IMG/VR virus record: IMGVR_UViG_3300042691_020788
Coordinates: 1-22,972 of that record
Strand: one strand, 5' to 3'
DNA from: a virus
Length of the DNA: 22,972 bases
Positions within the stretch are counted from its first letter, which is position 1, and every line of letters begins with the position of its first letter. The notes under the pieces are model-generated. The model searched no databases and was not told where the DNA came from. It saw only the letters and a program-made list of their open reading frames with translations. Shown one piece after another: positions 6,424 through 22,972 of the stretch. The position numbers were made by a program, and so were the translations under genes.

Positions 6424-6675
6424 TTAGGCTGCAATGATTTTGAAGTTGAACGCATCGGTTGCATTGGCCAATCCTTGGCTCTCCTCAGAGCCAAGGTTAA
6501 GGTCTCTTGGAAAACCCATCTTCAAGAGTTTGTTCCAAACGATTTGTCGCTCTCTACTTGATGCGAAAACTAATACTTGACCATCTGAAAAAATAATCAA
6601 ATGACCCGACTGAGAATTGTAAGCCATTGAAATTTTTCCGCTTACTCCCGATTTTTTGATTTGCAATGTTGTCAT
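6424..6675 (-). CDS. Hypothetical protein (83 aa), first gene of a promoter-led cassette
   Basis: The start at 6675 (MTTLQIKKSGVSGKI) is preferred over the ATG at 6702, which would sit at or before the predicted transcription start. The protein is beta-rich at the N-terminus (GHLIIFSDGQVLVFASSRER). Inside its 3' half the DNA holds a perfect 10-bp hairpin at 6473-6496. No family recognised; it looks like an early or accessory phage protein because it sits directly behind the shared promoter. Confidence 0.75.
   Translation of the reverse strand: MTTLQIKKSGVSGKISMAYNSQSGHLIIFSDGQVLVFASSRERQIVWNKLLKMGFPRDLNLGSEESQGLANATDAFNFKIIAA
6473..6496. repeat. Perfect 10-bp hairpin inside a small gene
   Basis: CCTTGGCTCT and AGAGCCAAGG pair perfectly around a CCTC loop, within codons for LGSEESQG. 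There is no T-run after it on either strand. Confidence 0.75.
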
Positions 6676-6706
6676 GTCTTTAAATTGGTTAGTGTTAAAC
6701 ATGAGG

Positions 6707-6737
6707 CAACATTACTGCGAGTTTCTGAAACTGCAAA
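6707..6737 (-). promoter_or_regulatory. Bacteroidetes-type promoter, shared family copy 1
   Basis: On the minus strand TTTG (6737-6734), a 19-bp spacer, then TAATGTTG (6714-6707), against the consensus TTTG-N19-TAnnTTTG. The -33 region reads TATTTTGCAGTTTCAGAAA, shared with the copies at 16.7 and 22.7 kb. An upstream AAAAAATATTTCATTTTTTT tract and a downstream AACACTAACCAA are also shared. It drives the cassette starting at 6675. Confidence 0.82.
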
Positions 6738-6776
6738 ATATCAGAGCAAAAAAAATGAAATATTTTTTCCGGCAGA

Positions 6777-7013
6777 TTATATCCGCTTGAATTTCTTGGC
6801 CTTAGACTTTACCGATTTGTTGCCAACGCATCCCCATGCTTGCCTCGATAACTCGTTCGGGCATGGGGTTGTCTTGGACTTACACTTCGGAATTCCGGCC
6901 GACCGAGTGCAGTAAGCATCGCCCTTCTTCGTGCCGGGAGCGATAGAATATCCCTTCGCCCCGAACTTGATGGTCTTGCCGTTGATGGTGGTCTTGAACT
7001 TTTTCTCTGCCAT
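6777..7013 (-). CDS. Small Cys-rich hypothetical phage protein (78 aa)
   Basis: MAEKKFKTTINGKTIKFGAK, then GDAYCTRSAGIPKCKSK, CPNELSRQAWGCVG and a Lys-rich tail. The four Cys residues and the motif CPNELSRxAWGC are, from memory, conserved in small proteins of Bacteroidota phages. Basic composition suggests contact with nucleic acid or a structural role such as zinc binding. It follows the next basic gene by 3 bases, so both are probably co-transcribed. Function unknown. Confidence 0.8.
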   Translation of the reverse strand: MAEKKFKTTINGKTIKFGAKGYSIAPGTKKGDAYCTRSAGIPKCKSKTTPCPNELSRQAWGCVGNKSVKSKAKKFKRI

Positions 7014-7016
7014 GGT

Positions 7017-7148
7017 TTATCGGCCTTGGCCTCGGTACTGCTTTTTTCGTGAATCCTTCGGCCTCCGGGTCTTCCGTGGTTTGCCTTCTCTGCGTTTGCC
7101 GAATGTGGTCTTGGTCGACCCGGTGGATGCCTTGGATTTCGCTGCCAT
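7017..7148 (-). CDS. Very basic small phage protein (43 aa)
   Basis: An ATG at 7148 opens a 43-codon frame ending with TAA at 7017. The protein starts MAAKSKASTGSTKTTFGKRR and continues EGKPRKTRRPKDSRKKQYRG. The segment TTFGKRREGKPRK and the ending YRGQGR match a small, highly basic protein seen repeatedly in Bacteroidota phage genomes (from memory). The charge suggests binding to DNA or RNA. It lies between two minus-strand genes with short gaps. Confidence 0.85.
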   Translation of the reverse strand: MAAKSKASTGSTKTTFGKRREGKPRKTRRPKDSRKKQYRGQGR

Positions 7149-7160
7149 GGTGCGAAGTTA

Positions 7161-7442
7161 CTAAGTTTTCATTTTCGCAATGACTTCATTTTTGGCCCGG
7201 AGATAAAACATCACGGCCTCGAATAATTCGGCAGTCGCTCGATGCTTCCGGGTTGTGACTCCGAGATTGGCTTTTTCATACTTCTCTCGCTCTCTTGTGG
7301 CCATGCGTTGAAGAGCGAGGAGGCAGTCATGCAATGACATCATTTTTTCCTCGATGTAAATCACATCACGAACAATTCTATCCTTTGCGTACTCTTCCCG
7401 GCTGATTGCGTAGGCATCCGGCTCAATCCATCTTTTTTCCAT
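7161..7442 (-). CDS. Hypothetical helical protein (93 aa)
   Basis: Start at 7442 (MEKRWIEPDAYAISREEYAK); the ATG at 7451 is an alternative, and both overlap the end of the upstream gene. The protein is mostly helical and charged (YIEEKMMSLHDCLLALQRMA, then KHRATAELFEAVMFYLRAKN). It follows two replication-type genes, so a replication accessory role is possible but not shown. Confidence 0.75.
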   Translation of the reverse strand: MEKRWIEPDAYAISREEYAKDRIVRDVIYIEEKMMSLHDCLLALQRMATREREKYEKANLGVTTRKHRATAELFEAVMFYLRAKNEVIAKMKT

Positions 7443-8253
7443 ATTTTTCATCGTATAAGTTTATCAATTCATCCTTGTCGGCCATGGACATGAAGTCGAT
7501 GACCATCTGCCTCTTTGCGTTGTCGGCAATCAACTTGTGCATCACATTGTTCTTGAGTTCCTCGGTAAATATCAAATTCTCGCCATGCTTGCTGAAAAGG
7601 TCTTGGAACGCATAAACATCTCGCCTCTTGTCTCTATCCTTGAGGAATTCAATCGGTGGTGCTTGTGTCTGCCGGAATGCTTCCCGGAAGTAGTATGACC
7701 TCCTCTCCTCGATTGATGGCTCGAATGCTCCGATGTCAATCAGTTTTTTGAACTGAAAATCGAGGGTCAAATCGTGAAATGTCGGTTTAGTCACGAAATT
7801 CACGAATCCATCACGAACCAATTTCCGCTTCTCCTCCTCCGATGGTTCGGCAAATCCGGTGATGCTTATTTTTTCCGGAGGCAATGTCGAACGATGTGAA
7901 TGGTCATATCGAAATTGCTTGTACCATCCGTAAATATTCGAGGCCGAAATCGTGGTGAGTTGATTCTCCAATCGGATTTCGCCATATGAGGCCATAGAGA
8001 TGGCCAAGGTGACATCATCGACCGGAGCATGAGGGTAAACATCCAAAATTTTTTTCACGGCCTCTGAGGCCGTTATTGCGAGAGTTTTCGCATCCGGGTT
8101 CAAACCCATCACGAGTGCTGCCTTGTGCAGCGCATCGTTGACCTTCATGACAACCGATTTCGGGTCTGCATTGAATTCATGCATAAGTCTTCCGGGAGCA
8201 TTGGCAACCTTGGCCAATGCTGCGGAATTAGTTTTCACCATGTTGCTCATCAA
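7423..8253 (-). CDS. Hypothetical protein downstream of the replication initiator-like gene (276 aa)
   Basis: No Walker motifs or other recognisable catalytic sites. The N-terminal half is Ala-rich and helical (VNDALHKAALVMGLN, ITASEAVKKILDVYPHAP) and contains ISMASYGEIRLENQLTTISA and IYGWYKQFRYDHSHR. The second half is rich in charged helices (SIEERRSYYFREAFRQTQAP). In many phages the gene after a DnaD/DUF4373-type protein encodes a helicase loader or partner, but this one lacks the P-loop expected for DnaC-like loaders, so I leave it unassigned. It overlaps the preceding gene by 26 bases, which indicates coupled expression. The DNA contains an 8-bp palindrome with one central base at 8057-8073. 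Confidence 0.8.
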   Translation of the reverse strand: MMSNMVKTNSAALAKVANAPGRLMHEFNADPKSVVMKVNDALHKAALVMGLNPDAKTLAITASEAVKKILDVYPHAPVDDVTLAISMASYGEIRLENQLTTISASNIYGWYKQFRYDHSHRSTLPPEKISITGFAEPSEEEKRKLVRDGFVNFVTKPTFHDLTLDFQFKKLIDIGAFEPSIEERRSYYFREAFRQTQAPPIEFLKDRDKRRDVYAFQDLFSKHGENLIFTEELKNNVMHKLIADNAKRQMVIDFMSMADKDELINLYDEKYGKKMD

Positions 8254-9016
8254 ATAAATCGTTTATGATGTTCACGGATTGTTGATAATTGGCCATCCGA
8301 ATGTCCATTTTTGATTGACCGGGATTTCCGGTGGTCGGCCGGGAGAACTTGGAATCGTTGCGATGCCAAGTTGCAAGTCGATTCGGAATCTCGAATGTCT
8401 TCTCAAGTTGCCAACGCATTTTTCCTTTTTGATTTTTTTCGCTCCAATAATTGGCAAAACTAAGCAACATCTCCTCTGAATACTTCTCCCGGTATTCACT
8501 TACTTTTTCAAAAAAAAGAATTTTCAAGTCTTCAACTTTTTCGATTTGTGCGGATGCCGGAACGGCATCACTAATATCTATTTTACTTTCTTTTACTTTA
8601 CTTTTCTTTTCTTTATTAGCATTGCGATTTGTATGCGTTCGCATTGCGTTCGCATCCGGTTCTGCAACTTGTTGATTGCGAAACTTTTCCCAACGAGTTA
8701 GTGCTGCTTTTTTCGCTCCATTCATGACATTTATTTGTGCTTGAATTCTGCGATTTACCGATGCAGATACGAACGCATTTTCATCGCATATAAACAAATC
8801 AAAGTCATGCACTACGGACTCGACAAGGTCGCATTGCACTCGCAATTCGAACGCAATGCGTTCGCATTCCGAACGCATAATCTTTCCCGATTCCTCATAT
8901 AACATCTCAACGATGCACCAATAAACACCGACTCCGGCCATTCCGTGTCGCATCGCTAACTTGACCAACTTCCGGTCATTCCGGGCATTGAAATCGTGGC
9001 TAAAATACTCTTTCAT
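8228..9016 (-). CDS. DUF4373 (Lin1244/Lin1753-like) replication protein
   Basis: The N-terminus, MKEYFSHDFNARNDRKLVKL then MRHGMAGVGVYWCIVEMLYE, is the hallmark of the DUF4373 domain, a winged-helix-like domain at the start of phage and plasmid replication proteins. Residues around 115-145 form a low-complexity linker (MRTHTNRNANKEKKSKVKES) encoded by a repeat-rich, AT-rich stretch. The C-terminal third (LLSFANYWSEKNQKGKMRWQ, then EKTFEIPNRLATWHRN) resembles the DnaD-like C-terminal region. Likely role: replication initiation or primosome recruitment. The start overlaps the previous stop as ATGA. The candidate origin lies within this gene. Confidence 0.9.
   Translation of the reverse strand: MKEYFSHDFNARNDRKLVKLAMRHGMAGVGVYWCIVEMLYEESGKIMRSECERIAFELRVQCDLVESVVHDFDLFICDENAFVSASVNRRIQAQINVMNGAKKAALTRWEKFRNQQVAEPDANAMRTHTNRNANKEKKSKVKESKIDISDAVPASAQIEKVEDLKILFFEKVSEYREKYSEEMLLSFANYWSEKNQKGKMRWQLEKTFEIPNRLATWHRNDSKFSRPTTGNPGQSKMDIRMANYQQSVNIINDLFDEQHGEN
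8572..8880. other. Candidate replication origin: iteron-like repeats plus AT-rich tract
   Basis: Two tandem copies of GCGTTCGCAT lie at about 8635-8655 (ATGCGTTCGCATTGCGTTCG), next to a tract at 8572-8622 made almost only of A and T with scattered C (TTTTACTTTCTTTTACTTTA). A second cluster at about 8828-8877 has GCGTTCGCAT once more and several partial copies in both orientations (CGAACGCA, GCATTGCACTCGCAA). Repeats beside an AT-rich unwinding region inside the replication initiator gene is the lambda ori/O layout. Function is inferred from pattern only. Confidence 0.45.
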
Positions 9017-9324
9017 AAAAATTCGAATCCTTGTGCATAAATTACTGATTCTTGAGTGCGGAACGGATTCTCGGATTCGGTGAAGAGATGGCCGAGCATC
9101 TTGATTAGCATCCGGGCCTCGCCCATGCCCATTTCAATCATGACCTCTCTTTCAATGCCATCAACGCAATCGCTCATGTGCAATTGAATCACACCCATTC
9201 CTCTCTGCTTATGAACAGAACCGATGACAAGGTTCATCCGTGTCTTCATCTCGGTCGATGAATGCAGAATCGGCTTCCGACCTTTGCCGTTCCATTTTTT
9301 CGCTTTCGTTTTTCTAATTTCCAT
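9013..9324 (-). CDS. Hypothetical protein (103 aa)
   Basis: Starts MEIRKTKAKKWNGKGRKPIL, a basic N-terminus, then TRMNLVIGSVHKQRG and IEREVMIEMGMGEARMLIKM. The end overlaps the replication gene as ATGA, so the two are coupled. The roughly 170 bases before it contain the structured element at 9342-9415, which would form the 5' leader of this gene if transcription continues. No family recognised. Confidence 0.75.
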   Translation of the reverse strand: MEIRKTKAKKWNGKGRKPILHSSTEMKTRMNLVIGSVHKQRGMGVIQLHMSDCVDGIEREVMIEMGMGEARMLIKMLGHLFTESENPFRTQESVIYAQGFEFL

Positions 9325-9341
9325 TTTTGAATTTGGTTAAT

Positions 9342-9415: not shown

Positions 9416-9437
9416 ATGATGTTGACCGGGTCTCACA

Positions 9438-10786: not shown

Positions 10787-11166
10787 TGGCACAAGTGACA
10801 TTTGAGGCACTTGCTGATTGGCTAATCAGCGAGGCCGAGGCCGGAGAGAATCACGAATTGCATCTGCTGCCGATTCCGGCCGATGGCATTCCGACTGCTG
10901 ATGAATTTTTTGGCCAACTCATGGGCATTCTTGACCTCCCGGCACATGGTGACATCATCGACCATGATGGCTCGCAATGGCTCGTTATCCGGGCATTCGG
11001 GATGTACTTCGTACATTCGTATGAGTACGATGTGAACGAGGCAGTACGAACGATGCATGAAGTTCATGAGTTCATCGATTCGACCGAGGAGAGTGCAGAG
11101 GAGGAGTCGCAGAATCTCCGTGATACTTACGATTCACTCCGGAAAGACCTCGATTCCGGTCTCTAA
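10786..11166 (+). CDS. Acidic hypothetical protein (126 aa)
   Basis: MAQVTFEALADWLISEAEAG, then HGDIIDHDGSQWLVIRAFGM and a very acidic C-terminal helix (STEESAEEESQNLRDTYDSL). The one-base overlap with the preceding gene supports the start. Acidic small phage proteins can mimic DNA or inhibit host proteins, but there is no specific evidence here. Confidence 0.78.
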   Translation: MAQVTFEALADWLISEAEAGENHELHLLPIPADGIPTADEFFGQLMGILDLPAHGDIIDHDGSQWLVIRAFGMYFVHSYEYDVNEAVRTMHEVHEFIDSTEESAEEESQNLRDTYDSLRKDLDSGL

Positions 11167-11238
11167 AATTTTTTTTCGATTTTTTCTTTTTGTCGCTCAA
11201 TGAGTTACAAATTATTTTCATTTTTCGTGAAAAATAAT

Positions 11239-11269
11239 TTTGCAGATTCAAAAACTTGCCGTTCCTTCG
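11239..11269 (+). promoter_or_regulatory. Bacteroidetes-type promoter, shared family copy 2
   Basis: TTTG (11239-11242), 19-bp spacer, TTCCTTCG (11262-11269). The extended -33 block TTTTGCAGATTCAAAAAC and the downstream TCACTAACCAA match the family; the -7 box is the weakest of the four. Upstream lies an AT-rich stretch with TTTTCATTTTTCGTGAAAAA. The gene at 11296 starts 26 bases after the -7 box. Confidence 0.75.
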
Positions 11270-11295
11270 CATCACTAACCAAGAGCAAAAAAGAC

Positions 11296-11511
11296 ATGAA
11301 ACTCACTAAAATCGAAACAATCGAAAAAATTGAATCCGGAGCAGTACTTGTAAAAAAGTTCGAACGGATGTATGGTACTTACTTCTTTATGAATTGCCCC
11401 GATGGAACTACAATTTGGAATCTCAATGAGAGCCATTGTAAATCAATCATCGCATCCGGTGCTTTTAAAAAGACAATGGTCGATTCAAATATGTTCGAAT
11501 TTTCAAAATAA
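11296..11511 (+). CDS. Hypothetical protein (71 aa) behind a shared-family promoter
   Basis: MKLTKIETIEKIESGAVLVK then FERMYGTYFFMNCPDGTTIW. The ATG at 11296 is chosen because the longer frame would start within or ahead of the promoter. Codon use is more A-rich than in the flanking genes, as in other small cassette genes. Function unknown. Confidence 0.75.
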   Translation: MKLTKIETIEKIESGAVLVKKFERMYGTYFFMNCPDGTTIWNLNESHCKSIIASGAFKKTMVDSNMFEFSK

Positions 11512-11539: not shown

Positions 11540-11764
11540 ATGACAACGCAAGAATTATTATCACGCATTGATGCTCGCACAACAACATCTTATGGCCACT
11601 TTCGTGTCACCATTCAGTATCGTGGAAAGCAGTATAGCTGCACAACCACCGATTCAATGGCATACGATAAGCATCTCGATGAGGATGCGAAAGGATTCCA
11701 TACTCAGAAAAGCGCATTGAAAGCATTGTGGAACGAATGCAAGCGCAAGAACAATCTCTACTAA
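11540..11764 (+). CDS. Hypothetical protein (74 aa)
   Basis: MTTQELLSRIDARTTTSYGH, then FRVTIQYRGKQYSCTTTDSM and a Lys-rich C-terminus. The pattern beta-strand, beta-strand, helix suggests a small compact fold, possibly nucleic-acid binding. It follows the previous gene by 28 bases in the same transcript. No family recognised. Confidence 0.75.
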   Translation: MTTQELLSRIDARTTTSYGHFRVTIQYRGKQYSCTTTDSMAYDKHLDEDAKGFHTQKSALKALWNECKRKNNLY

Positions 11765-11789
11765 GTCACCAATTCAAATTTCAATACTT

Positions 11790-12434
11790 ATGATTACTGC
11801 AAAAAGCACATCGACCATCGTTTCCGAGCCAATCCCGGCCGGAACTTATCTCGCCCGGTGTTATTCCATGGTTCATCTCGGAACGCACGATGATGAATAT
11901 CAAGGCCGAGCCAAGAAGACAAACAAGGTTCGCATCACATGGGAGTTGCCGACCGAACTCAAGGTGTTCAATCCGGAGAAAGGAGAGCAACCAATGGTTG
12001 TCTCCAAGGAGTTCACCTTGTCCATGTCGGAGAAAGCCAATCTCCGGGCATTCTTGACCTCATGGCGAGGCAAACCATTCACGGCAGAGGAGGCAGCATC
12101 CTTCGACATCACCAAGTTGCTCGGAGTGCCATGCCAACTTTCAATCATTCACGAGCCATCGAAAAAAGACCCATCGAGGATGTACGAGAGAATCAGCAGC
12201 ATCTCCTCCGTGATGAAAGGAGTCACTTGTCCGGCTCAGATTAACCCGACATTCATGTTCTCGTTGGAGGCATTCGACCCGAACGCATTCGCAGCACTCC
12301 CGGATTGGCTCAAGGACATCGTGAGAAACTCCGATGAGTATAAGGCACTCTCTGCTCCGGCAGAGCAGCCACAAGTCGCTCAGAGCGATTCTCCGACCTC
12401 TATCGTTGATGATGGCATTGACCTCCCATTTTAA
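11790..12434 (+). CDS. Probable phage single-stranded DNA-binding protein (214 aa)
   Basis: The protein reads KVRITWELPTELKV, VSKEFTLSMSEKANLRAFLT and ITKLLGVPCQLSIIHEPSKK, a beta-rich pattern compatible with an OB-like fold and, from memory, with a family widespread in phages of Gram-negative hosts beside recombination genes. The C-terminus ends DDGIDLPF after an Ser/Gln-rich linker, like the acidic DDxxPF tip through which SSB proteins contact partners. The ssDNA-binding role is an inference from the tail and context. Cys residues are not arranged as a zinc site. Confidence 0.62.
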   Translation: MITAKSTSTIVSEPIPAGTYLARCYSMVHLGTHDDEYQGRAKKTNKVRITWELPTELKVFNPEKGEQPMVVSKEFTLSMSEKANLRAFLTSWRGKPFTAEEAASFDITKLLGVPCQLSIIHEPSKKDPSRMYERISSISSVMKGVTCPAQINPTFMFSLEAFDPNAFAALPDWLKDIVRNSDEYKALSAPAEQPQVAQSDSPTSIVDDGIDLPF

Positions 12435-12436
12435 TC

Positions 12437-12937
12437 ATGGAAAAGTTAACTATTTCAATACTTCGCTCAAGTCAGATGGAAAATATAATATCACTTTTGA
12501 AATTCTCCCCTCGTGGTGGGGAGATTTCAAATGCTGCCGATGTAATCGCAGCAGAAGTCATCGATGGCCACGAAGATGGTCTCCAACTCCTTGTCGGCAT
12601 CAAGGCCGTTCAGAAATTGCTCGATGCCATCACCGAACGCATCGAGGAATCAGCACTCAACGAGGCACTCCTTGAGGCGAAGAGATTCGAGAAGTTCGGA
12701 GCGAAAATCGAGGTCAGAGAAGTCGGCACTCGGTACAACTTTGATGGTTGCCAAGACCCGGTTCTTGTCCGGTTGGCAGAGGCGAAAAAGCAATGGTCAG
12801 ACCTCGAAAAAGACCGCCAAACTCTGCTCAAGACTCTTCGTGGCAAAACCGAGATGCTCGACACCGAGACCGGAGAAATTATCTACGCATTGCCTCCGAT
12901 TAAGACATCAAAAACCGGAGTTGTGATAACTTTGTGA
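12437..12937 (+). CDS. Hypothetical helical protein (166 aa)
   Basis: Starts two bases after the previous stop (MEKLTISILRSSQMENIISL). Long charged helices follow (VQKLLDAITERIEESALNEA, LAEAKKQWSDLEKDRQTLLK), with KIEVREVGTRYNFDGCQDPV between them. Proteins of this kind, with a YxFxxCxDPVL segment and a coiled coil, occur near SSB or RecT-like genes in Bacteroidota phages, from memory. Role in replication or recombination inferred only from position. It ends the plus block before the two-way terminator. Confidence 0.78.
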   Translation: MEKLTISILRSSQMENIISLLKFSPRGGEISNAADVIAAEVIDGHEDGLQLLVGIKAVQKLLDAITERIEESALNEALLEAKRFEKFGAKIEVREVGTRYNFDGCQDPVLVRLAEAKKQWSDLEKDRQTLLKTLRGKTEMLDTETGEIIYALPPIKTSKTGVVITL

Positions 12938-12978
12938 ATCCTAAAAGATAGGTGTTAATTTGGTTAGTTAAACAAAAA

Positions 12979-12999
12979 AACCCGGCTTTTGGCCGGGTT
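12979..12999. terminator. Bidirectional terminator between convergent blocks
   Basis: Stem AACCCGGC (12979-12986) with GCCGGGTT (12992-12999), loop TTTTG. On the minus strand it is followed by seven T residues (12980-12974 region), and on the plus strand by TTCTTTGTTT. It lies between the end of the plus block (12937) and the end of the capsid gene (13059). Confidence 0.85.
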
Positions 13000-13005
13000 C
13001 TTTGT

Positions 13006-13065
13006 TTAAGAATACCCATCCGAGTATCCATCGGAGTATGCTCCGATGAATCCCGGACTTAGGTA
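13006..13065 (-). other. Short -1-frame extension at the end of the capsid gene
   Basis: If the ribosome slips -1 in the run CTTTTTA at 13070-13064, the capsid frame continues past its TAA as YLSPGFIGAYSDGYSDGYS and stops at 13006, just before the terminator. The SDGY repeats look protein-like. A perfect 8-bp hairpin (CATCGGAG/CTCCGATG, 13029-13048) lies downstream. No start codon in this frame makes it a free gene. It may be a programmed extension or a remnant. Confidence 0.4.
13029..13048. repeat. 8-bp hairpin after the capsid gene
   Basis: CATCGGAG and CTCCGATG pair perfectly around a TATG loop, 11 bases beyond the capsid stop codon in the minus sense. It is followed by no T-run and is separate from the terminator at 12979-12999. 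Confidence 0.7.
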
Positions 13066-15594: not shown

Positions 15595-16065
15595 TCAGCA
15601 CTCCCGGCAATCAATGCGTTCGAGCATCGTGAAGTCGATGGTGAAGAATTGGGTCTGAGTCTGCCTCTCGTTGATGCCGAAGAAAGTCCGAGCATTCTCC
15701 CGATTCGAGAAACTCGAATTCCCCAATGTCACTCGTGCGACATTGTTCAATGATGCTGCCATAACCGCCTCCATTCCGGCAACCTTGGAATTCACCACGA
15801 GTCTGAATTGGATGTCTCGATTGATGATGTGACTCCGGCCTCCACCGGGTTGAGTATTTGGCCGGGCCGACTGCCGGATGAAAAAACACACGATGTCGAA
15901 GTTGTCATTCACGGAGCAGAATCGTTGTCCATCTGCGGTCACATAGTTTCCGGCATCGCTCGGAGTTACGGCTTCAACGGCTTCGCCATAGTTGAGAATC
16001 TTGAGACCGGGGAGTGCCTCGATGGTATCGCATATCGTGCTGAATGGAGTTATTAGTTTTATCAT
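15595..16065 (-). CDS. Tail completion/terminator-like protein (156 aa)
   Basis: Starts with ATGA overlap after the HK97-gp10-like gene. Sequence includes MIKLITPFSTICDTIEALPG, IVCFFIRQSARPNTQPGGGR, DIQFRLVVNSKVAGMEAVMA and QFFTIDFTMLERIDCREC. Size, beta-rich end and its place right after a gp10-like protein match tail completion or tail terminator proteins, which cap the tail. This call rests on synteny and length, not on a clear motif. Confidence 0.6.
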   Translation of the reverse strand: MIKLITPFSTICDTIEALPGLKILNYGEAVEAVTPSDAGNYVTADGQRFCSVNDNFDIVCFFIRQSARPNTQPGGGRSHIINRDIQFRLVVNSKVAGMEAVMAASLNNVARVTLGNSSFSNRENARTFFGINERQTQTQFFTIDFTMLERIDCREC

Positions 16066-16607
16066 TTGAGAATTTGATTGATGATTCGGTTGAGAATTTG
16101 CATCGCTTGCTCTTCCTCCTCTTTACTGAGCGCAAAGATAGGCCCGAATCTCTTCTCATGGTATCCGGCAATCTTGGCCGACTCTGCGTTCTTGAATCCG
16201 ACTCCCCACGAATTATCATCCAATGGTGAGGGAATCCAATCTCCGAACATTGCTCCGGTCAGAGTGAGGTCGATGAAATCGGTTTGCAATCCGAGCGACT
16301 GCCGGAACTCCTTGTATCCTCCGTAAAATTCATCCGTGTCACCGAATGCTTTCATCCGCTTGCTCATCTGCTTTTTGTTGGCAATCGAACCGAATTTCCC
16401 GGTGATTTTGCCAAATGCCAAGGTCTTGGTCGAGTATTCACCAATCTGCGAACCATCGGCTTTCTGACCATCGTTCTGCACTCTCTTGGCCACGGCAGCA
16501 GCACCATCGATTGCGAGTTCACGCAATACTCGGTTCACATCACCGATTGCCTTGAGTTGGCCGAGGTGATTTTTGAAGAGGTCAGATGTCGAGTTGAATA
16601 CTTGCAT
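16062..16607 (-). CDS. HK97 gp10-like/Mu gpG-like neck or tail-completion protein (181 aa)
   Basis: Shows the pattern of the gp10/virion morphogenesis family: an N-terminal helix (FKNHLGQLKAIGDVNRVLRE), a middle basic region around STKTLAFGKITGKFG, DLTLTGAMFGDWIPSP, then NAESAKIAGYHEKRFGPIFA, which resembles the AxYHxxG...P(F)xF end of these proteins. Such proteins join head and tail. It is the first gene of the head-neck block and lies downstream of the divergent promoter region at 16.65 kb, although no clear minus-strand promoter could be fixed there. Confidence 0.72.
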   Translation of the reverse strand: MQVFNSTSDLFKNHLGQLKAIGDVNRVLRELAIDGAAAVAKRVQNDGQKADGSQIGEYSTKTLAFGKITGKFGSIANKKQMSKRMKAFGDTDEFYGGYKEFRQSLGLQTDFIDLTLTGAMFGDWIPSPLDDNSWGVGFKNAESAKIAGYHEKRFGPIFALSKEEEEQAMQILNRIINQILK

Positions 16608-16688
16608 TTTTTTTGACTCTCAAATATTGTGATTTTGAATGACTTGTGCCGGAGCGAAAAAAATATTTCACTTTTTTTCATCCAATAT

Positions 16689-16719
16689 TTTGCAGATTCA
16701 GAAATACGTTATTGCTTTG
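16689..16719 (+). promoter_or_regulatory. Bacteroidetes-type promoter, shared family copy 3
   Basis: TTTG (16689-16692), 19-bp spacer, TTGCTTTG (16712-16719). The -33 block ATATTTTGCAGATTCAGAAA is nearly identical to copy 4. An AAAAAAATATTTCACTTTTT tract lies upstream and CACTCACTAACCAA downstream. The start codon at 16743 is 23 bases after the -7 box. Confidence 0.85.
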
Positions 16720-16742
16720 CACTCACTAACCAACAACACCTT

Positions 16743-16934
16743 ATGATTTCTATGGTTCAAGTCATCGTTTATCGTATCACGGATTTGGGAAATCCGTTTT
16801 ACTCTGCCAACTTCCAAGAGCATGAATGTGCTTCTTCCAATTTGGCCGATGCAGCATCGTTTGCTGCTCAAATCAACTCCAATGCGAACTTGTTCGCACG
16901 AGTTCAAGTTCAATGTTTCACCGGGGAGGAGTAA
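16743..16934 (+). CDS. Hypothetical protein (63 aa) behind a shared-family promoter
   Basis: Start at 16743 (MISMVQVIVYRITDLGNPFY); the longer frame from 16629 only translates the promoter. The protein continues with a helix rich in Ala and Asn (NLADAASFAAQINSNANLFA). An 8-bp hairpin, ACGGATTT/AAATCCGT with four T residues after it, occupies codons 13-18 (16779-16797) and could act as an attenuator. The stop codon lies inside hairpin copy 3. Function unknown. Confidence 0.75.
   Translation: MISMVQVIVYRITDLGNPFYSANFQEHECASSNLADAASFAAQINSNANLFARVQVQCFTGEE
16779..16800 (+). repeat. Early intragenic hairpin with short T-run
   Basis: ACGGATTT (16779-16786) pairs with AAATCCGT (16790-16797) around GGG, and TTT follows. 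About 55 bases downstream of the expected transcription start. Terminator-like but with a weak T-run. Confidence 0.55.
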
Positions 16935-16942
16935 TCCTCCCC
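16923..16942 (+). repeat. Conserved intergenic hairpin, copy 3
   Basis: GGGGAGGA/TCCTCCCC with loop GTAA, which contains the stop codon of the 63-residue gene. It is 11 bases before the ATG at 16954. The flank AATGTTTCACC and the block after it (CATATTTCAAAAATGG) match copy 2 on the opposite strand 10.5 kb away. Confidence 0.82.
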
Positions 16943-16953
16943 ATATTTCAAAA

Positions 16954-17370
16954 ATGGATATGCACAATTCAATCATCGGAAGTATTGAGAATGTAAGGAT
17001 TCACTCTCTCGACAATTACTTGTTCATCAATGGCACTCTCTCGGCCAATTCCGGAGGTCTCAGCCATGCTCAGAATCTCATCCACAACTTGGGAGGCACT
17101 CTCTCCGTTGTTGCATGGAGAATTGATGTGTTGGACATGGACATGGCATTCATGGCCGTAACCATCGACAACTTGGACATCGGCCTCAACATCCGAATCA
17201 CCATCGATATCAGTCCGGAGATGGCAGCGAAACAAATCGAGGCATGGCATGGCAATGATATTATGAAATGCAAGAGGAGATGTGGCCTTACTCTCATCGA
17301 CAATTCGTATCTTGTTCCCTCATCTGATGATTCAAAGTATGAATGGAAAAAGAAGTCCGTGGTCAATTGA
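16954..17370 (+). CDS. Hypothetical protein (138 aa)
   Basis: Starts at 16954 (MDMHNSIIGSIENVRIHSLD) right after hairpin copy 3; the longer frame overlaps the preceding gene. Beta strands with regular hydrophobic spacing dominate: NYLFINGTLSANSGGLSHAQ, GTLSVVAWRIDVLDMDMAFM, VTIDNLDIGLNIRITIDISP. It ends with a basic stretch (YEWKKKSVVN). No family recognised; could be an accessory host-interaction protein. Confidence 0.75.
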   Translation: MDMHNSIIGSIENVRIHSLDNYLFINGTLSANSGGLSHAQNLIHNLGGTLSVVAWRIDVLDMDMAFMAVTIDNLDIGLNIRITIDISPEMAAKQIEAWHGNDIMKCKRRCGLTLIDNSYLVPSSDDSKYEWKKKSVVN

Positions 17371-17443
17371 GGCCATCGTGGCCGGAGGATTCATCATCCT
17401 CATCTTGGTCATGATTTTTCGCAGCATCATCGCCAATCAATAA
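17339..17443 (+). CDS. 34-residue single-pass membrane peptide
   Basis: ATG at 17339 (MNGKRSPWSIEAIVAGG) overlaps the preceding gene by 32 bases and ends with TAA at 17441-17443, 6 bases before the terminator stem. After a short basic N-terminus, IVAGGFIILILVMIFRSIIA forms one strongly hydrophobic helix. It is the last frame of the cassette. Small size lowers confidence, but the position before the terminator and the hydrophobic segment are in its favour. Possible small holin-like or membrane regulatory peptide. Confidence 0.5.
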   Translation: MNGKRSPWSIEAIVAGGFIILILVMIFRSIIANQ

Positions 17444-17449
17444 AAAAAG

Positions 17450-17470
17450 AACCCGGTCAAAAACCGGGTT
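17450..17470. terminator. Bidirectional terminator
   Basis: AACCCGGT (17450-17457) pairs with ACCGGGTT (17463-17470). Plus-strand T-run to 17474; minus-strand T-run from 17448 to 17442. It separates the convergent plus cassette and the minus gene ending at 17504. Confidence 0.9.
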
Positions 17471-17503
17471 TTTTCTTGTCATCAAAAATGGAAAAACTTA
17501 TGA

Positions 17504-18541
17504 TTACGGACGATTGAATCCTTGCTGAATCAACCCGGAATTTTCGCAGTTGAAACACAAGTCTTCTCCTTTTAGATTGAGTTGATTCGCCCATGTGGCG
17601 ATTGATGAGTTGTAATTGTCGAGGAATGTGGTCATGTTTCGCTCGGTCAATTCTCGATTGCTCTGAGCGAAGTAATTCGCACGAGGCGATGAGATTTTCG
17701 CCCATAATATTTGAAAGCATAGGAGATTCGCCCATGCATCGGTGAGATATTCCTTTTCTCGGCAAATGAATTGGTCAAGTGAGCAGACAAGGTCTGCATC
17801 TATATAAACTCCGGACTGCGTTGAATCGCTCGTGTAATCGACTCCGAGGCCGTAATTCAACGGAGCAGTCACCGGGAAGATGTTCCATCCGTTGTTCATT
17901 ATCCACGAGAATCTCTGACCACATTCGATGTCGAATTGTTCCCAACCATAATCCATGAACGAGCCAACCAATGTGTCCACAATTGAACAATCAACGGCAA
18001 CCATGATGTTGATTTTGTCAAAATCGCTCACAAATGTCTCGTTGATTGGCACATAATTCATCCCCGGTGCGAGGTCTGCCGTGCCGGAGTAAATCACCGA
18101 GCCATCTTGAGTTTGAAAAAACTTAAACGGCACTCCCATTGATGGATGTGGCCCGGCATTATAGATGTACAATTGCCGGATGCGGAGGCCGAGATACTTC
18201 GACCCTTCGACCGACACGAAGACTCCTCGGTATTCTGCCGAGGCCGGGAGAGGAGTAATCTGCGACCATTGCTGCACATATTGCTTGGAAGTCCGAAAAA
18301 GGACTTGGTCGAGTCTCGCCTCGGCCACCGAGAAAAGAACCTTCTGCACATCCATCCGGAATCGTTGGTATGCTGCTCTCTGAGTCGATGCCCAAAATCC
18401 GGCATAGGATGCTTGCTCCGGAGTGCTGATTGATTCGAGCAACTCCATTCCCATTCCGGGGTAATCGTTGATGTAAACACCGGAAATCGGGTCGCTGCCT
18501 CCACATGAGAGCAGACCAACATAATTCGTGAGACAATTCAT
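17504..18541 (-). CDS. Conserved phage protein of unknown function, possibly virion or tail associated (345 aa)
   Basis: The ATG at 18541 (MNCLTNYVGLLSCGGSDPIS) fits the conserved start of a family I recall from Bacteroidota phages (NCLTxxxGLxxC...SGxYINDLPG); here GVYINDYPGMGME follows. The ATG at 18592 would overlap the upstream gene. Later parts contain FRTSKQYVQQWSQITPLPAS, GLRIRQLYIYNAGPHPSMGV (a beta-rich domain) and ENSGLIQQGFNRP at the end. Cys residues are numerous. Family membership is likely, function not established; a structural role fits its position among head and lysis genes. Confidence 0.78.
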   Translation of the reverse strand: MNCLTNYVGLLSCGGSDPISGVYINDYPGMGMELLESISTPEQASYAGFWASTQRAAYQRFRMDVQKVLFSVAEARLDQVLFRTSKQYVQQWSQITPLPASAEYRGVFVSVEGSKYLGLRIRQLYIYNAGPHPSMGVPFKFFQTQDGSVIYSGTADLAPGMNYVPINETFVSDFDKINIMVAVDCSIVDTLVGSFMDYGWEQFDIECGQRFSWIMNNGWNIFPVTAPLNYGLGVDYTSDSTQSGVYIDADLVCSLDQFICREKEYLTDAWANLLCFQILWAKISSPRANYFAQSNRELTERNMTTFLDNYNSSIATWANQLNLKGEDLCFNCENSGLIQQGFNRP

Positions 18542-18550
18542 GGCGATGAT

Positions 18551-18558
18551 TTTCGCAA
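18551..18558 (-). promoter_or_regulatory. TAACTTTG motif before the 345-residue gene
   Basis: On the minus strand TAACTTTGCGAAAATC stands just before the ATG at 18541. It matches TAnnTTTG and shares GCGAAAA with the motifs before the tape measure gene. No TTTG 19 bp upstream. It may be a secondary promoter. Confidence 0.3.
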
Positions 18559-18560
18559 AG

Positions 18561-18797
18561 TTATGAATTTGATTCTTTTTCTCCGCTGGCATTCAGAATT
18601 CGGAAAATCTTATTCGATAATCCGACCCAAACTCCGAGAACTTGAGCGAGAATGAAGAGGAGGATATTGTCGGTCGATTGAACTCGGTTGACCTTGTAAA
18701 GCCAACCGACTCCAATCAGCAGACCAACGAGGATTGCCGTGACTGCCGTGTATGCATACACTTGCATCCTCTTATTGTACTGCCTTTCGGAATTCAC
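18561..18797 (-). CDS. Two-helix membrane protein, holin-like (78 aa)
   Basis: A GTG at 18797 gives a GTGA overlap with the preceding stop and begins VNSERQYNKRMQVYAY; an ATG at 18887 would extend it by 30 residues over the previous gene. Two membrane helices are clear: AVTAILVGLLIGVGWLY and NILLFILAQVLGVWVGL, with a charged tail (ASGEKESNS). Size and two-helix layout fit a class II holin. Beside a spanin-like gene and an endolysin, the lysis role is a reasonable inference. Confidence 0.6.
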   Translation of the reverse strand: MNSERQYNKRMQVYAYTAVTAILVGLLIGVGWLYKVNRVQSTDNILLFILAQVLGVWVGLSNKIFRILNASGEKESNS

Positions 18798-19449: not shown

Positions 19450-19872
19450 ATGGTCACATCACGAGATTGTTTCGCCAAGTACGGCAAACCCGACCCGGCA
19501 AATCCATGCATGACTTTATGGGATGTTCCGACATCACTCGAAATCGGGATGATACCGAAACGCATTTATTGCAACAAGGACATGGTGATGCCTCTGAGCA
19601 TCGCATTCGGGAATCTCATCAACCGGGGATTCGTTGCTGAACTCAAGACATGGGATGGTTGTTTCAACATCCGGAAAATCCGGGGAGGCAATGCCATGTC
19701 GCTGCACTCATGGGGAGTTGCCGTTGATGTCAATGCGTTCAGCAATGGCCTCGGTAAAGAGCCAACTCTCTCACCGGGATTCGTGAAGTGCTTCACCGAT
19801 GCCGGGTTCGATTGGGGAGGAACTTGGAAACGCAAGGATGGGATGCATTTTCAACTTGCGAAAATCAAGTAG
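19450..19872 (+). CDS. M15-family peptidase endolysin (D-Ala-D-Ala/L-Ala-D-Glu peptidase type)
   Basis: 140 residues with the M15 zinc ligands in order: SLHSWGVAVDVNAF gives H86 and D93, and DGMHFQL gives H133; FDWGGTWKRKDGMHFQL is typical of the M15_4 endolysins. It should cut peptide crosslinks in the cell wall. There is no signal peptide, so it would need the neighbouring holin-like proteins. It is the only plus-strand gene in a minus-strand block, divergent from the membrane genes and convergent with the next gene (the stop codons abut at 19872/19873). Confidence 0.93.
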   Translation: MVTSRDCFAKYGKPDPANPCMTLWDVPTSLEIGMIPKRIYCNKDMVMPLSIAFGNLINRGFVAELKTWDGCFNIRKIRGGNAMSLHSWGVAVDVNAFSNGLGKEPTLSPGFVKCFTDAGFDWGGTWKRKDGMHFQLAKIK

Positions 19873-20100
19873 TCAATCTAACAACATACGAGGGTCGATG
19901 AATGGCTGCAACTCCGGGTTTTTCGCCCATTCGACCGGGGAATACACGAAGTCATTGACTTGACCTTTCATGACCTTTTCGTGGCGATTCGTACCGAGTA
20001 CGATGTCTTCCGGTAATCCATCCGGAAATGCAGCACAAGTCACGATGTTCAAAGGTCTCCAATGAATACAAGTGCGACATGGCAGTTCTTTTGCTTCCAT
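19873..20100 (-). CDS. Small Cys-containing phage protein after the minor head gene (75 aa)
   Basis: Starts within TAATG overlap of the minor head stop. It contains CRTCIHWRPLNIVTCAAFPD, a Cys set (C8, C11, C22) with AAFPDGLPEDIVLG. Small proteins with CxxC...CxAFPDGIP occur next to minor head genes in many tailed phages (from memory). A zinc or iron-sulfur site is possible. Function unknown. Confidence 0.8.
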   Translation of the reverse strand: MEAKELPCRTCIHWRPLNIVTCAAFPDGLPEDIVLGTNRHEKVMKGQVNDFVYSPVEWAKNPELQPFIDPRMLLD

Positions 20101-21824
20101 TACTTTTTGAAATATTTATTTACGAGTTTTCCGATTTCTGATGCCCATTTTGATGGCCGGGAGTGCAAATGAAAATTCGCAAATCCCTCGGCAAAGAATT
20201 CATCGACATTGGTCTGCGAGTAGTCTCCGAGATAGTTTCTGCGGAATGACTCTTCGAGTTTCATGAACTCCGGAGATGTTCGCAAAAATCTCGCATCTGC
20301 CTCGGCTATCTTGGTCATGTCTGCTCTTATCCCTTGTTTGTAATCAACAAACAATTTGTCCATTTCACTCCAAAATTGACTCGATGATGGTTGAAATGCT
20401 CGACTCTGAGAAATGAAGTGAGCGAACTCATGCACCGGAGTCGCAATGCGTTCATTGACTTCATCAACGATTGATTTCGGCATTGAGATTCTGTTTTTTG
20501 GCAATCTTGACAAAACCCGGTCGAGGTCAACTCCGCTGCCAAAATTTACTTCCACATACAATCGTTTTCCGTTCGAAAGAGAACTTACAACTCTGCCGTA
20601 ATAATCATTTTTTTGCCGAAAAATCAATTGGCTTTGCCATCCGGTTTTTCCATCAATTCGGTACATATTGGCCAACTTATCAATCGCTGCAACTTGCTCA
20701 CGCAATACATCTGCGGACACATCACGAGCGACAATTGTTTTCGAAAAACTCAGACCATAGTTTTTTTCAAGTGAATCGTTTAGGTATTGCTTCAATCCAT
20801 CAATGGTTTTCGGCAATCCGGATGTATCTCCGGCAAATCCCTTCGGTGGTTTCGGAGTTGGCAATGGCTTCGGCAAAACCGGAGGAGCAGTCATCTGCGG
20901 AGGGATTGCCGGAGGAGGAGGAGCGACCGGAGGCGATGGTGGAGTCGCTGCCGGAGGAGTGATTCCTTTCGCCCGGTTATACTGCTCCTCAGTCACGGGC
21001 CAAATCTTGTGTCGACAATTATATCCTCCGGCATAGGAGAAAATCGTTGTTGAGTTTGTTCCGGCCATCTTGCCATCCCATGTCTGAGATGCCCATTTCT
21101 CGACCTCTTCCTTCGTGTAATACTTCCCGGCTCTTGATTGGCAGAACTGCCTCGTGTCTCCGATGATTGTTCCTTGGTACAAATAATGCCTCATACCGAG
21201 GTCTTCGGAGATTGTCTGCAAGTATTCACGATTGAAGACCATCAACGAGTCATTGGTTGTCTGCTTGATGTAGTTTTCAAGATATGCCTTGCGTTGCGGA
21301 GTGCCTTCGATGAACTTCGCCAAGGTCTCCATCAGAGTCGCTCGGTCAGAGACTCCGGCAATATTGGCTTTCAAGACCTCTTGAATCGCATTGCCGAAGT
21401 TGTCAACGATGCCTCCACCGAGGAGTGCATCCTTGGTGATGGCGATGTTGGATTCGAGAATTGCGTTGTACAACTTCCGGGTCGGCTCAAAATCATCCAT
21501 GGTTGACCCGATGAATTGGTCGGTCAGATTCTTGATGGTCTTGAACTCGTTGGTCAACTTCAAGACCTCTCGTTGGTAGTCCGGATTCTTGACCACGAGG
21601 TCTCCCATCTTTCTCTTGAGGCCGATGAGTTCTCGCAATGTCTTCGCCCGGTCATTCGGGTCGAGAGAGAGATTGGCAGCTACTCTCTGCACATCACGAG
21701 AGAGAGTTGCAAAGACCTTCGGCAATGCTCCGGCCATGCCGTTTTCGAGCGAGACCTCAAGGTCTCCCAATTGCTTGATGATTGCTCGTTGCTTCGGAGT
21801 TAGCGCATCCAACGGGTCTGCCAT
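20100..21824 (-). CDS. Minor head protein (SPP1 gp7/Mu F type) fused to a zincin-like domain
   Basis: 574 residues. Residues 1-285 form the phage minor head domain, ending with RQFCQSRAGKYYTKEEVEKW and GGYNCRHKIWPVTEEQYNRA, the classic GYxCRHxxxP motif of Mu F-like proteins. A proline-rich linker spans about 290-328. The C-terminal part has VHEFAHFI (HExxH at 465-469) and, about 75 residues on, VDEFFAEGFANF with two Glu residues that could be the third zinc ligand. So this virion protein may carry a metallopeptidase into the capsid or host. A portal gene would be expected upstream but the strand changes there. Confidence 0.88.
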   Translation of the reverse strand: MADPLDALTPKQRAIIKQLGDLEVSLENGMAGALPKVFATLSRDVQRVAANLSLDPNDRAKTLRELIGLKRKMGDLVVKNPDYQREVLKLTNEFKTIKNLTDQFIGSTMDDFEPTRKLYNAILESNIAITKDALLGGGIVDNFGNAIQEVLKANIAGVSDRATLMETLAKFIEGTPQRKAYLENYIKQTTNDSLMVFNREYLQTISEDLGMRHYLYQGTIIGDTRQFCQSRAGKYYTKEEVEKWASQTWDGKMAGTNSTTIFSYAGGYNCRHKIWPVTEEQYNRAKGITPPAATPPSPPVAPPPPAIPPQMTAPPVLPKPLPTPKPPKGFAGDTSGLPKTIDGLKQYLNDSLEKNYGLSFSKTIVARDVSADVLREQVAAIDKLANMYRIDGKTGWQSQLIFRQKNDYYGRVVSSLSNGKRLYVEVNFGSGVDLDRVLSRLPKNRISMPKSIVDEVNERIATPVHEFAHFISQSRAFQPSSSQFWSEMDKLFVDYKQGIRADMTKIAEADARFLRTSPEFMKLEESFRRNYLGDYSQTNVDEFFAEGFANFHLHSRPSKWASEIGKLVNKYFKK

Positions 21825-21829
21825 GGCCT

Positions 21830-21837
21830 CAAATTTA
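21830..21837 (-). promoter_or_regulatory. TAAATTTG motif directly before the minor head gene
   Basis: Exact TAnnTTTG on the minus strand; its transcript would start at about the ATG at 21824, that is nearly leaderless. The -33 position has AATG in place of TTTG. Weak candidate for the promoter of the minus block. Confidence 0.3.
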
Positions 21838-21904
21838 CAACTTCCGAATCATTTGTCATTCTGCGATTTCATTGCTATTTTTCGCAGATTTAAGAACATC
21901 GAAA

Positions 21905-22402
21905 ATGGAATATTTATATGATAATGTTCCTCGGTTCATGGAGGCCGAGGCGAGGGTTCAGCGCATCCTTGAGGCGAGAGGATATACAATCCTCCGAACA
22001 TCCGGAGAGTTCAACAAGGCCGACCTTTTTCTCGGAAAAGAGGTCGATGGCCGGAATACACTTGTCGGAATAGCAGAGGTCAAATCACGAGAGTATGCCG
22101 GGAATGTTCCGTTGACTCTCGAATACATCAAGAACTCCGGTGGTTATTTGGTTTCGTACCACAAACTTGACCATGCTGCCAAGTTGAGCGAGTTGCACGA
22201 AGTTCCGTTTTTTCTCATCGTGAATCTGATGCTCACTCGGCAATTGCTATTCTTCCAACTTACTCATCACACCGGGAAATTCGCCACCAAATTCATCACC
22301 GAGCGAACCATCACGCAGAAGTCATCGAACGGAGGAACGGCCAATCGGCTCAACGCATTCCTCCCGGCTGATGGCGAGTTTTTTTCGGTCACCAAGTATT
22401 AA
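21905..22402 (+). CDS. PD-(D/E)XK-like nuclease (165 aa)
   Basis: MEYLYDNVPRFMEAEARVQR, then ARGYTILRTSGEFNKADLFL and VGIAEVKSREYAGNVPLTLE. The arrangement E16 (helix), D near residue 41 (KADLFL) and ExK in AEVKSR is the PD-(D/E)XK core. The part after (YIKNSGGYLVSYHKLDHAAK) fits the helix that follows. It may be a phage endonuclease or Holliday-type resolvase, different from the VRR-NUC at 10 kb. The start at 21905 avoids the AT-rich intergenic region. The specific family is not recognised. Confidence 0.72.
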   Translation: MEYLYDNVPRFMEAEARVQRILEARGYTILRTSGEFNKADLFLGKEVDGRNTLVGIAEVKSREYAGNVPLTLEYIKNSGGYLVSYHKLDHAAKLSELHEVPFFLIVNLMLTRQLLFFQLTHHTGKFATKFITERTITQKSSNGGTANRLNAFLPADGEFFSVTKY

Positions 22403-22403
22403 C

Positions 22404-22661
22404 ATGAATAATTTCCAAAAGTACGGAATCACCATGCTCTCGGCTCTGATTCTTGAGGCCGGGTCAACGATGTACATCGCTGCCGTGGCTGACCGCCATG
22501 CGATGATGTTATTTTGGGCATTCATCGGGCCATTCTTGAATCTGCCGTTCACCGGGTTCATGTTGGAGACCAAGACATGGAGGCAACGATTCGCTCTCGC
22601 ATTGTCCATGGCCATTGGATATTGCCTTGGCTCATTCGTTGTTTATTGGCAGCGATTGTGA
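22404..22661 (+). CDS. Small multi-pass membrane protein (85 aa)
   Basis: The start at 22404 (MNNFQKYGITMLSALILEAG) follows the nuclease stop by one base. Hydrophobic helices: ITMLSALILEAGSTMYIAA, MMLFWAFIGPFLNLPF and FALALSMAIGYCLGSFVVYW. It looks like a three-helix membrane protein. It is followed by the family promoter copy 4. Function unknown; holin-like or superinfection-related are both possible. Confidence 0.72.
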   Translation: MNNFQKYGITMLSALILEAGSTMYIAAVADRHAMMLFWAFIGPFLNLPFTGFMLETKTWRQRFALALSMAIGYCLGSFVVYWQRL

Positions 22662-22698
22662 CCGAGGAAAAAATATTTCAAATATTTTCATCCAATAT

Positions 22699-22729
22699 TT
22701 TGCAGTTTCAGAAATATGGTATTCCTTTG
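22699..22729 (+). promoter_or_regulatory. Bacteroidetes-type promoter, shared family copy 4
   Basis: TTTG (22699-22702), 19-bp spacer, TTCCTTTG (22722-22729). ATATTTTGCAGTTTCAGAAA in the -33 block and CTCACTAACCAA after. Upstream AAAAAATATTTCAAATATTT is also shared. Drives the gene starting at 22760. Confidence 0.85.
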
Positions 22730-22759
22730 CTCTCACTAACCAAGTACAACAAAAAAGTC

Positions 22760-22972
22760 ATGCAAAATCTCACAAACATCCTCCTCGCTCAGACTGCCGA
22801 ATTCAAATCAGCATTTATCGCAAAAACTCAAGCATTCGCAATTCGTGAATTCGCTCGTTTCGAAAAGATTGCTTCATGGGACAAGGCAGAATGGTGCAAG
22901 TTTTTCGGACTTACACCAAGTATTGGAAAAATTTACAATGGAGTTCAATATATGGAATTCCCAAACAATTTC
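22760..22972 (+). CDS. Hypothetical protein, cut by the right window end (at least 71 aa)
   Basis: The ATG at 22760 opens a frame (MQNLTNILLAQTAEFKSAFI, then QAFAIREFARFEKIASWDKA and EWCKFFGLTPSIG) still open at the last base. It is the first gene behind family promoter copy 4, like the small genes behind copies 1-3, though the protein sequences differ. Helical and charged, no family recognised. Confidence 0.7.
   Translation, partial: MQNLTNILLAQTAEFKSAFIAKTQAFAIREFARFEKIASWDKAEWCKFFGLTPSIGKIYNGVQYMEFPNNF

Follow-up and report, generated by a model that had tools for sequence, protein, structure and literature searches.

Dispersed copies of a Bacteroidota-type promoter block probably lead exchangeable gene cassettes in a tailed phage and its relatives

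The present analysis concerns a sequence block that occurs four times in the window, which is the whole of IMG/VR record IMGVR_UViG_3300042691_020788, a 22,972-bp linear fragment of a tailed phage whose genes include those for the terminase large subunit, an endolysin-like protein and a replication initiation protein, and whose tape measure gene is truncated at the left end. Comparison with related viral contigs suggests that the block is probably a multi-copy promoter of the Bacteroidota type, the copies of which would form one co-regulated set and drive exchangeable, moron-like gene cassettes at fixed sites.

Results

The block in the window and its relatives

The four copies lie at the coordinates given in the initial annotation, TTTTGCAG having its first base at 6738 on the minus strand and at 11238, 16688 and 22698 on the plus strand, and most of what had been described for them was recovered: TTTG and a -7-like box are exactly 19 bp apart in all four, the extension TTTTGCAG(A/T)TTCA(G/A)AAA is exact in each, and an A/T tract lies upstream of every copy. 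The -7 box proved looser than the TAnnTTTG-like form given there, in that all four copies have the layout TTTG-N19-TnnnnTYG but none an exact TAnnTTTG; scored against T-12, A-11, T-8, T-7, T-6 and G-5, the boxes (in order TAATGTTG, TTCCTTCG, TTGCTTTG and TTCCTTTG) agree at 5, 4, 5 and 5 of the 6 positions, A-11 being the base missing from three of them. Overlooked at that stage was a leader octamer, CACTAACC(AA), which is present in all four copies 35-44 nt past the start of TTTTGCAG. The whole block measures 81-93 bp. Over 81 bp, the stretches 16658-16738 and 22668-22748 share 88% identity, and the complementarity of each to the minus-strand copy at 6722-6771 is 86%. Each copy stands, as had been claimed, before a different short open reading frame (ORF), of 83, 71 and 63 amino acids (aa) and, in the last case, of 71 aa truncated by the contig end (170-174 aa in relatives), and none of these four promoter-proximal ORFs had a match in Pfam or PHROG.

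In a search with a profile built only from block copies in other contigs, those of the window scored 64.9, 57.9, 56.4 and 39.6 bits (E 7e-20, 1e-17, 3e-17 and 5e-12); the next-best window match reached 4.6 bits (E 0.46), and the highest score among 100 dinucleotide-shuffled versions of the window was 11.0 bits. The relatives were gathered with a gapped pattern and with the terminase protein, which yielded about a dozen viral contigs, a sample of metagenome fragments from few genomes, with terminase identities of 92-100% in one group and 62-72% in others. Entire contigs were retrieved (G002, G003, G004, G006, G008, G012, G015, G016, G018, G019 and G020; W is the window), and the block was found in about ten contigs other than the window, so that it is not absent from related phages. 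The core 17-mer was dropped as a probe on its own, most of the 102 viral stretches that it matched being chance, and the matches of a gapped core-plus-octamer pattern were likewise mostly chance.

Eighteen distinct full copies in the related contigs, aligned by register, together with two divergent copies (G004 22672 and G006 4531, both at S2), fall at five syntenic sites that were assigned from gene maps with orthology: S1, between genes 6777-7013 and 5693-5866; S2, before the 11540-12937 operon; S3, between 16062-16607 and 17504-18592; S4, beside 21905-22402; and S5, between the endolysin gene and 19873-20100, which is unoccupied in the window. The orientation at S2 to S5 is opposite to that of the structural genes. 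Within this virus group, the predicted promoter, 85-93 bp long and almost the same in each copy, is repeated at up to five such sites of a genome. Conservation is near-complete at -65 to -46 (an A-tract and a T-tract), at -37 to -20, at T-12, T-7, G-5 and C-4, and in CACTAACC with its following AA, while -45 to -40, -19 to -13 and -11 to -8 vary among full copies. The run from -37 to -20, ATTTTGCAG-W-TTC-RR-AAA, is invariant bar three two-letter positions, and both the TTTG of the -33 element and the 19-bp spacing are kept in 18/18 full copies. Within the -7 box, T-12, T-7 and G-5 are likewise found in 18/18, T-6 in 15/18, T-8 in 11/18 and A-11 in 9/18. An ORF starts within a few tens of nucleotides of the predicted +1 in the full copies.

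The -7 element of Flavobacterium johnsoniae promoters, TAHHTTTG, spans -12 to -5, with transcription starting 4-5 nt further on, and Bacteroidota promoters have TTTG/TANNTTTG (PMC6847099). The layout of the block fits such -33/-7 promoters, which points to recognition by sigma-ABfr, and on the F. johnsoniae ruler the predicted transcript start falls at CACTAACC or immediately ahead of it. Between the -7 box and the octamer there are 3-4 nt in one class of copies and about 12 nt in another, and the octamer lies about 10-25 nt before the ATG. The conserved unit is thus larger than a promoter, because it takes in this 5'-leader element, which is also found before second genes that have no promoter. 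A search of the window against Rfam gave nothing near the gathering score, which places the leader outside the known RNA families, and the leaders tested did not fold. Separately, a CTAACC stretch with AACAC-like surroundings lies right after the terminator shared with the major capsid gene (window 12957-12967, G004 21195, G006 3027) and is possibly a relic of a leader.

Several structural genes are preceded, at the same places in four genomes, by perfect TAHHTTTG boxes that lack a -33 TTTG, among them the tape measure gene (W 1547, G004 32831, G018 1061, G002 17475) and the 20100-21824 gene (W 21837). These boxes are likely a separate, perhaps late, promoter class, and the block family accordingly constitutes a distinct one.

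Probable promoter families in other phage groups

Two further phage groups carry dispersed families of their own that share this layout. An independent check is offered by the cultured Flavobacterium phage 1/32 (KJ018210), whose protein F132_63 is a distant homologue of the S4 protein, with 37.6% identity along the entire S4 sequence, and its gene sits behind a promoter family of that phage made of an A-rich tract, CTTGCGRGAATGAAAAATAGTTG and TAAATTTG with 19-bp spacing (a TTG-N19 layout). A terminator-like hairpin closely precedes each of the copies, which lie at 5853, 8613 and 41630 with a weaker one at 33930; TAAATTTG is perfect in three of the four. The third family, TTGAAAATAAAYTTGCANAAT-N14-TTYATTTGC with 20-bp spacing, has four copies in G012 and recurs in G015 and in another contig; the G012/G015 group has 61-62% terminase identity. 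In G012 (IMGVR_UViG_3300034107_000416), which at 38.5 kb and with identical 127-bp ends (a terminal repeat) is probably a complete genome, the copies occupy places equivalent to S1, S2 and S3, and one lies at a leftward replication-side operon. As these sites are syntenic to S1-S3 and the consensus is different, the sites themselves are old and it is the promoter sequence that has changed in concert.

Among single proteins, the best phage matches were to Porphyromonas phages (replication protein, 50% identity over 41%) and to Flavobacterium phage 1/32 (the S4 gene), a Leeuwenhoekiella phage being one of many tape-measure hits; these matches agree with a Bacteroidota promoter type. A search of GTDB genomes found no prophage and no terminase relative, and six GTDB matches to a longer pattern were judged by eye to be non-members, so that no host genome was assigned.

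It is possible, and of the alternatives this has the best chance of being correct, that the block is chiefly an operator, in which a phage regulator, either repressor or activator, would bind GCAG(A/T)TTCRRAAAC between -33 and -7 of an otherwise ordinary promoter and switch the cassettes together, the conserved stretch being its binding site. The invariant run does continue from the -33 box deep into the spacer, further than sigma alone requires, and the spacers differ among the three phage groups yet are uniform within each, as if each were co-evolving with its own factor. There is also a partial dyad, AGWTTC-R-RAAACT, with outer arms that match in one genome (L203, GCAGATTCGGAAACTGC). However, the dyad is incomplete in most copies, which are symmetrical in their inner part only, so that a perfect operator dyad was rejected as a general feature; it is absent from the phage 1/32 family, and a search of 51 proteins turned up no DNA-binding regulator family, helix-turn-helix or otherwise. 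Moreover, an operator would supplement a promoter at this place and not replace it.

An improbable alternative shifts the promoter upstream, such that the true -7 box would be TATTTTG/TAATTTTG, overlapping the supposed -33 element, with a start around GATTC and the remaining block, CACTAACC included, a conserved 5' untranslated region. This would put the A/T tracts near -38 to -19, where F. johnsoniae promoters have AT-rich motifs, and at S2 of W, G004 and G006 the sequence TAATTTTG agrees perfectly with TAnnTTTG. However, the corresponding 8-mer is not TAnnTTTG in the other 17 full copies, whereas the downstream T-N4-T(T/C)G is placed at exactly 19 bp in 18/18; the TTG of the downstream box is kept even in the divergent S2 copies, in which position -12 is G, and the equivalent box of phage 1/32 is a perfect TAAATTTG.

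Gene exchange at the five sites

First genes, taken from the start codons after the leader and not from ORFs read through the promoter, are exchanged at S1-S4, and the genes further downstream are kept at S1-S3. Five different first genes occur at S1 in six genomes and three at S2 in three genomes; at S2 the window has an extra 71-aa gene ahead of the 11540 gene, to which the promoter leads directly in G006. Three different first genes in three lineages are found at S3, where the second gene family is constant, and S4 holds one gene family in three genomes (W, G004, G018) and another gene in G008. A single family occupies S5 in four genomes. The view in the initial annotation of dispersed promoters leading accessory cassettes holds in that the promoters are of Bacteroidota type and the accessory sets vary among relatives, but the 11238 copy also leads a conserved replication-type operon.

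Genes also move between sites. The S4 family (170-174 aa) is found at S1 in G002 and G003, and at S1 of G004 a new gene displaces the first S1 gene of G016 to second place, where it retains its own TTTTAACACTAACC leader but has no promoter. Entire cassettes may be there in one genome and missing in another: S4 is empty in G019, whereas in G004 it holds an insert of about 0.7 kb that brings a terminator, a gene and a promoter of its own, and S5 is filled in G018 but not in the window. In the 174-aa S4/S1 family (L247:10343-10867 and relatives), conservation is strong over the N-terminal 25 residues and the C-terminal 70, and the middle is variable; the predicted fold (pLDDT 82) matched no PDB entry, the only matches being uncharacterised phage proteins, and the S5 protein model, at pLDDT 48, was too poor for use.

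The block itself is mosaic. Its upstream half tracks the site and its downstream half often does not; the S3 copy of G004 is a chimera, identical upstream (33/33) to S3 of G018 and downstream (29/29) to S1 of G003, with the switch inside the invariant core. A PHI-like permutation test on 45 informative columns gave p 0.0002-0.004, and incompatibility between upstream and downstream halves exceeded that within halves (p 0.004).

Whole-cassette presence and absence, the relocation of genes between sites and the chimeric blocks might also be explained if the block were mainly a recombination module, either a remnant of a mobile element or an integration site, with incidental promoter activity, and an inverted CACTAACC does lie at the outer edge of the G004 S4 cassette (L247, about 10955-10975; CTCACTAACCACAACAAGC), a feature not seen in other copies. 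This is nevertheless quite unlikely, as no integrase or transposase family was found among the 51 proteins, the empty sites show neither terminal inverted repeats nor a regular target duplication, every full block points to a nearby gene start, and conservation concentrates on promoter positions. An integron-like system was rejected, with no integrase family and no attC-like site seen. That the likeness of the copies is due simply to recent duplication without functional constraint, as the 88% identity of the window S3 and S4 copies could suggest, is very unlikely, since same-site copies in different genomes vary at free positions around an invariant core and the G012 sites syntenic to S1-S3 have a different consensus.

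Besides the perfect upstream match at S2, some points weigh against the interpretation of the block as a promoter family at fixed sites. At -11, half of the copies carry T and not the near-invariant A; the sites were compared across fragments, G012 alone looking complete; the partners in the chimera test were picked afterwards as nearest neighbours, which makes its Fisher p-values optimistic; and a Pfam search of the 51 proteins recognised no regulator or sigma factor, and gave one ParB_N domain.

Features of the window are collected in Table 1.

Table 1. Block copies, cassettes and associated features of the window (positions in nt).
Feature	Position	Strand	Details
S1 block copy	6679-6771	-	A/T tract; TTTG 6734-6737; TTTTGCAGTTTCAGAAA 6722-6738; N19; TAATGTTG 6707-6714; CACTAACC 6687-6694, long-leader type; E 3e-17
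83-aa ORF of no known function, promoter-proximal in variable S1 cassette	6424-6675	-
Two more small accessory ORFs, S1 cassette	5863-6378 (6154-6378, 5863-6108)	-	Conserved gene 5693-5866 next
S2 block copy	11209-11289	+	TTTG 11239-11242; core 11238-11254; -7-like TTCCTTCG 11262-11269; leader CACTAACC 11273-11280; E 5e-12
71-aa ORF between S2 promoter and gene 11540-11764	11296-11511	+	Gene 11540-11764 directly follows the promoter in G006
Conserved operon downstream of S2	11540-12937	+	11540-11764; 11790-12434 (PHROG 862); 12437-12937
Terminator-like hairpin with T-run, end of S2 operon	12975-13008	+
S3 block copy	16655-16738	+	TTTG 16689-16692; core 16688-16704; -7-like TTGCTTTG 16712-16719; leader CACTAACC 16724-16731; E 7e-20
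63-aa variable ORF, promoter-proximal in S3 cassette	16743-16934	+	Orientation opposes flanking structural genes
Second S3-cassette ORF	16954-17370 (reading frame 16822-17370)	+	Family kept in G004, G018, G019
Terminator-like hairpin with T-run, closing S3 cassette	17441-17474	+
S4 block copy	22666-22750	+	TTTG 22699-22702; core 22698-22714; -7-like TTCCTTTG 22722-22729; leader CACTAACC 22734-22741; E 1e-17
ORF start, 71 aa, truncated by contig end	22760-22972	+	170-174-aa family: at S4 in G004, G018; at S1 in G002, G003
Empty S5 site	19860-19890		Endolysin gene abuts 19873-20100; promoter and gene cassette there in G018, same position in G002, G004, G020
Perfect TAHHTTTG boxes without -33 TTTG	1547, 5627, 18563, 19417, 21837	-	Before structural genes

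Discussion

Comparison with known systems

The closest parallel may be the promoter-early stem-loop (PeSL) elements of T4-type phages (Arbiol et al., 2010; Comeau et al., 2014), for which, according to PMC4503421, homology of the regulatory element is credited with gene shuffling between related phages; the chimeric blocks and relocated genes described above agree with shuffling at such an element. In both systems, one early-type promoter recurs many times between small accessory genes. However, PeSL elements are -35/-10 sigma-70 promoters of large myoviruses, in contrast to the -33/-7 Bacteroidota type, TTTG-N19-TnnnnTYG, in a phage of about 40 kb, and they are joined to a stem-loop terminator, whereas a terminator lies within 160 nt upstream in 1/21 copies here. 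The phage 1/32 family, unlike that of the window, does have terminators directly upstream. Early promoters of T4-like phages also exist as phage-specific variants of one class, mapped at conserved positions and before ORFs without homologues (PMC1524935), but they depend on another sigma type, number tens of copies and share no leader octamer.

In archaeal viruses, conserved regulatory sequences of early anti-defence genes have been used to predict anti-defence genes (PMC11065993). There too, one regulatory sequence stands before many unrelated small genes of a virus and differs between viruses, and some of the sequences contain inverted repeats. However, those promoters are of the BRE/TATA type, and their early timing and some anti-defence functions were tested. 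Given its other sigma or promoter type and the lack of a joined terminator in 20/21 copies, the block is a member of neither the PeSL nor the archaeal early sets, but by analogy it may work as both do.

The start-associated sequences (SAS) and extended SAS (ESAS) of Cluster K mycobacteriophages are likewise dispersed before genes of different families, conserved across genomes and subgroup-specific in consensus, but the repeat is a 13-bp, AGGAG-containing element at the ribosome-binding site, 3-7 bp before start codons (PMC3203893). The window block, in contrast, lies at promoter distance and has a leader without a Shine-Dalgarno element, CACTAACC containing no AGGAG. Morons, finally, are genes carried as insertions in phage genomes, each with a promoter and a terminator of its own (PMC1524935). 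The S3 and S4 cassettes resemble them, as each has its own promoter and terminator and lies against or between structural genes, and empty S4 and S5 sites are seen. No single promoter family is known to be shared by lambdoid morons; here the same block stands at all sites.

A model for the block and its cassettes

Taken together, these data suggest a model in which the block would comprise five parts: an A-tract and T-tract at about -65 to -46, in the position of an UP element; an extended -33 element, ATTTTGCAG(A/T)TTCRRAAA, at -37 to -20; a degenerate -7 box, T(A/T)nnnT(T/C)G, exactly 19 bp past TTTG; a start site about 4-5 nt beyond that box, at or just before CACTAACC; and a short, unstructured, A-rich leader. 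Transcription from each copy by the host RNA polymerase would switch on the cassette downstream of it, most likely shortly after infection; the copies may be strong promoters, as the initial annotation had it, and the link of the family to replication-side operons suggests early activity. The identical core and leader would also provide short stretches of homology at which recombination could swap or add first genes.

A bolder version of this model can be put forward tentatively, and we consider it rather doubtful. It proposes promoter-addressed slots, in which a group-specific promoter, its spacer and leader changing in concert at every site of a genome, is read with a group-specific factor and doubles as a short homology platform for the docking and exchange of new promoter-proximal, largely anti-defence genes, with leader-gene units stacking behind a single promoter. 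That many cassette products counter host defences is a conjecture, and Pfam and PADLOC searches of the 51 proteins gave no defence-related match except one methyltransferase, while the first genes that were scanned had no counterpart in Pfam.

If the model holds, the block could serve as a tag for exchangeable, probably host-directed genes in Bacteroidota phages that are otherwise unreadable, as regulatory motifs did in archaeal viruses. Three phage groups have such families, each uniform in its own sequence and at partly syntenic sites, and the concerted change of these promoter sets hints at a trans-acting factor or at active homogenisation. In the literature collection searched, multi-copy promoter families are not described for Bacteroidota phages; what is new here is their occurrence in this setting, the octamer common to the leaders and the change in concert from one group to another.

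Additional sequence elements

The accessory cassettes have a second element in common, a dispersed hairpin, ACCGGGGAGGAGYARTCCTCCCCATTTTCAAA, which folds at -17.2 kcal/mol (z -3.0) and immediately precedes the ATG of the following small gene. It occurs in the window at 6121-6159 and 6390-6425 on the minus strand and at 16912-16947 on the plus strand, and also in G002, G004, G006 and G016. Elsewhere in the window, direct and inverted repeats of the GCGTTCGCAT type are clustered at 8619-8655 and 8809-8878, inside the replication initiation gene (8228-9016), in an arrangement that looks like iterons or an origin.

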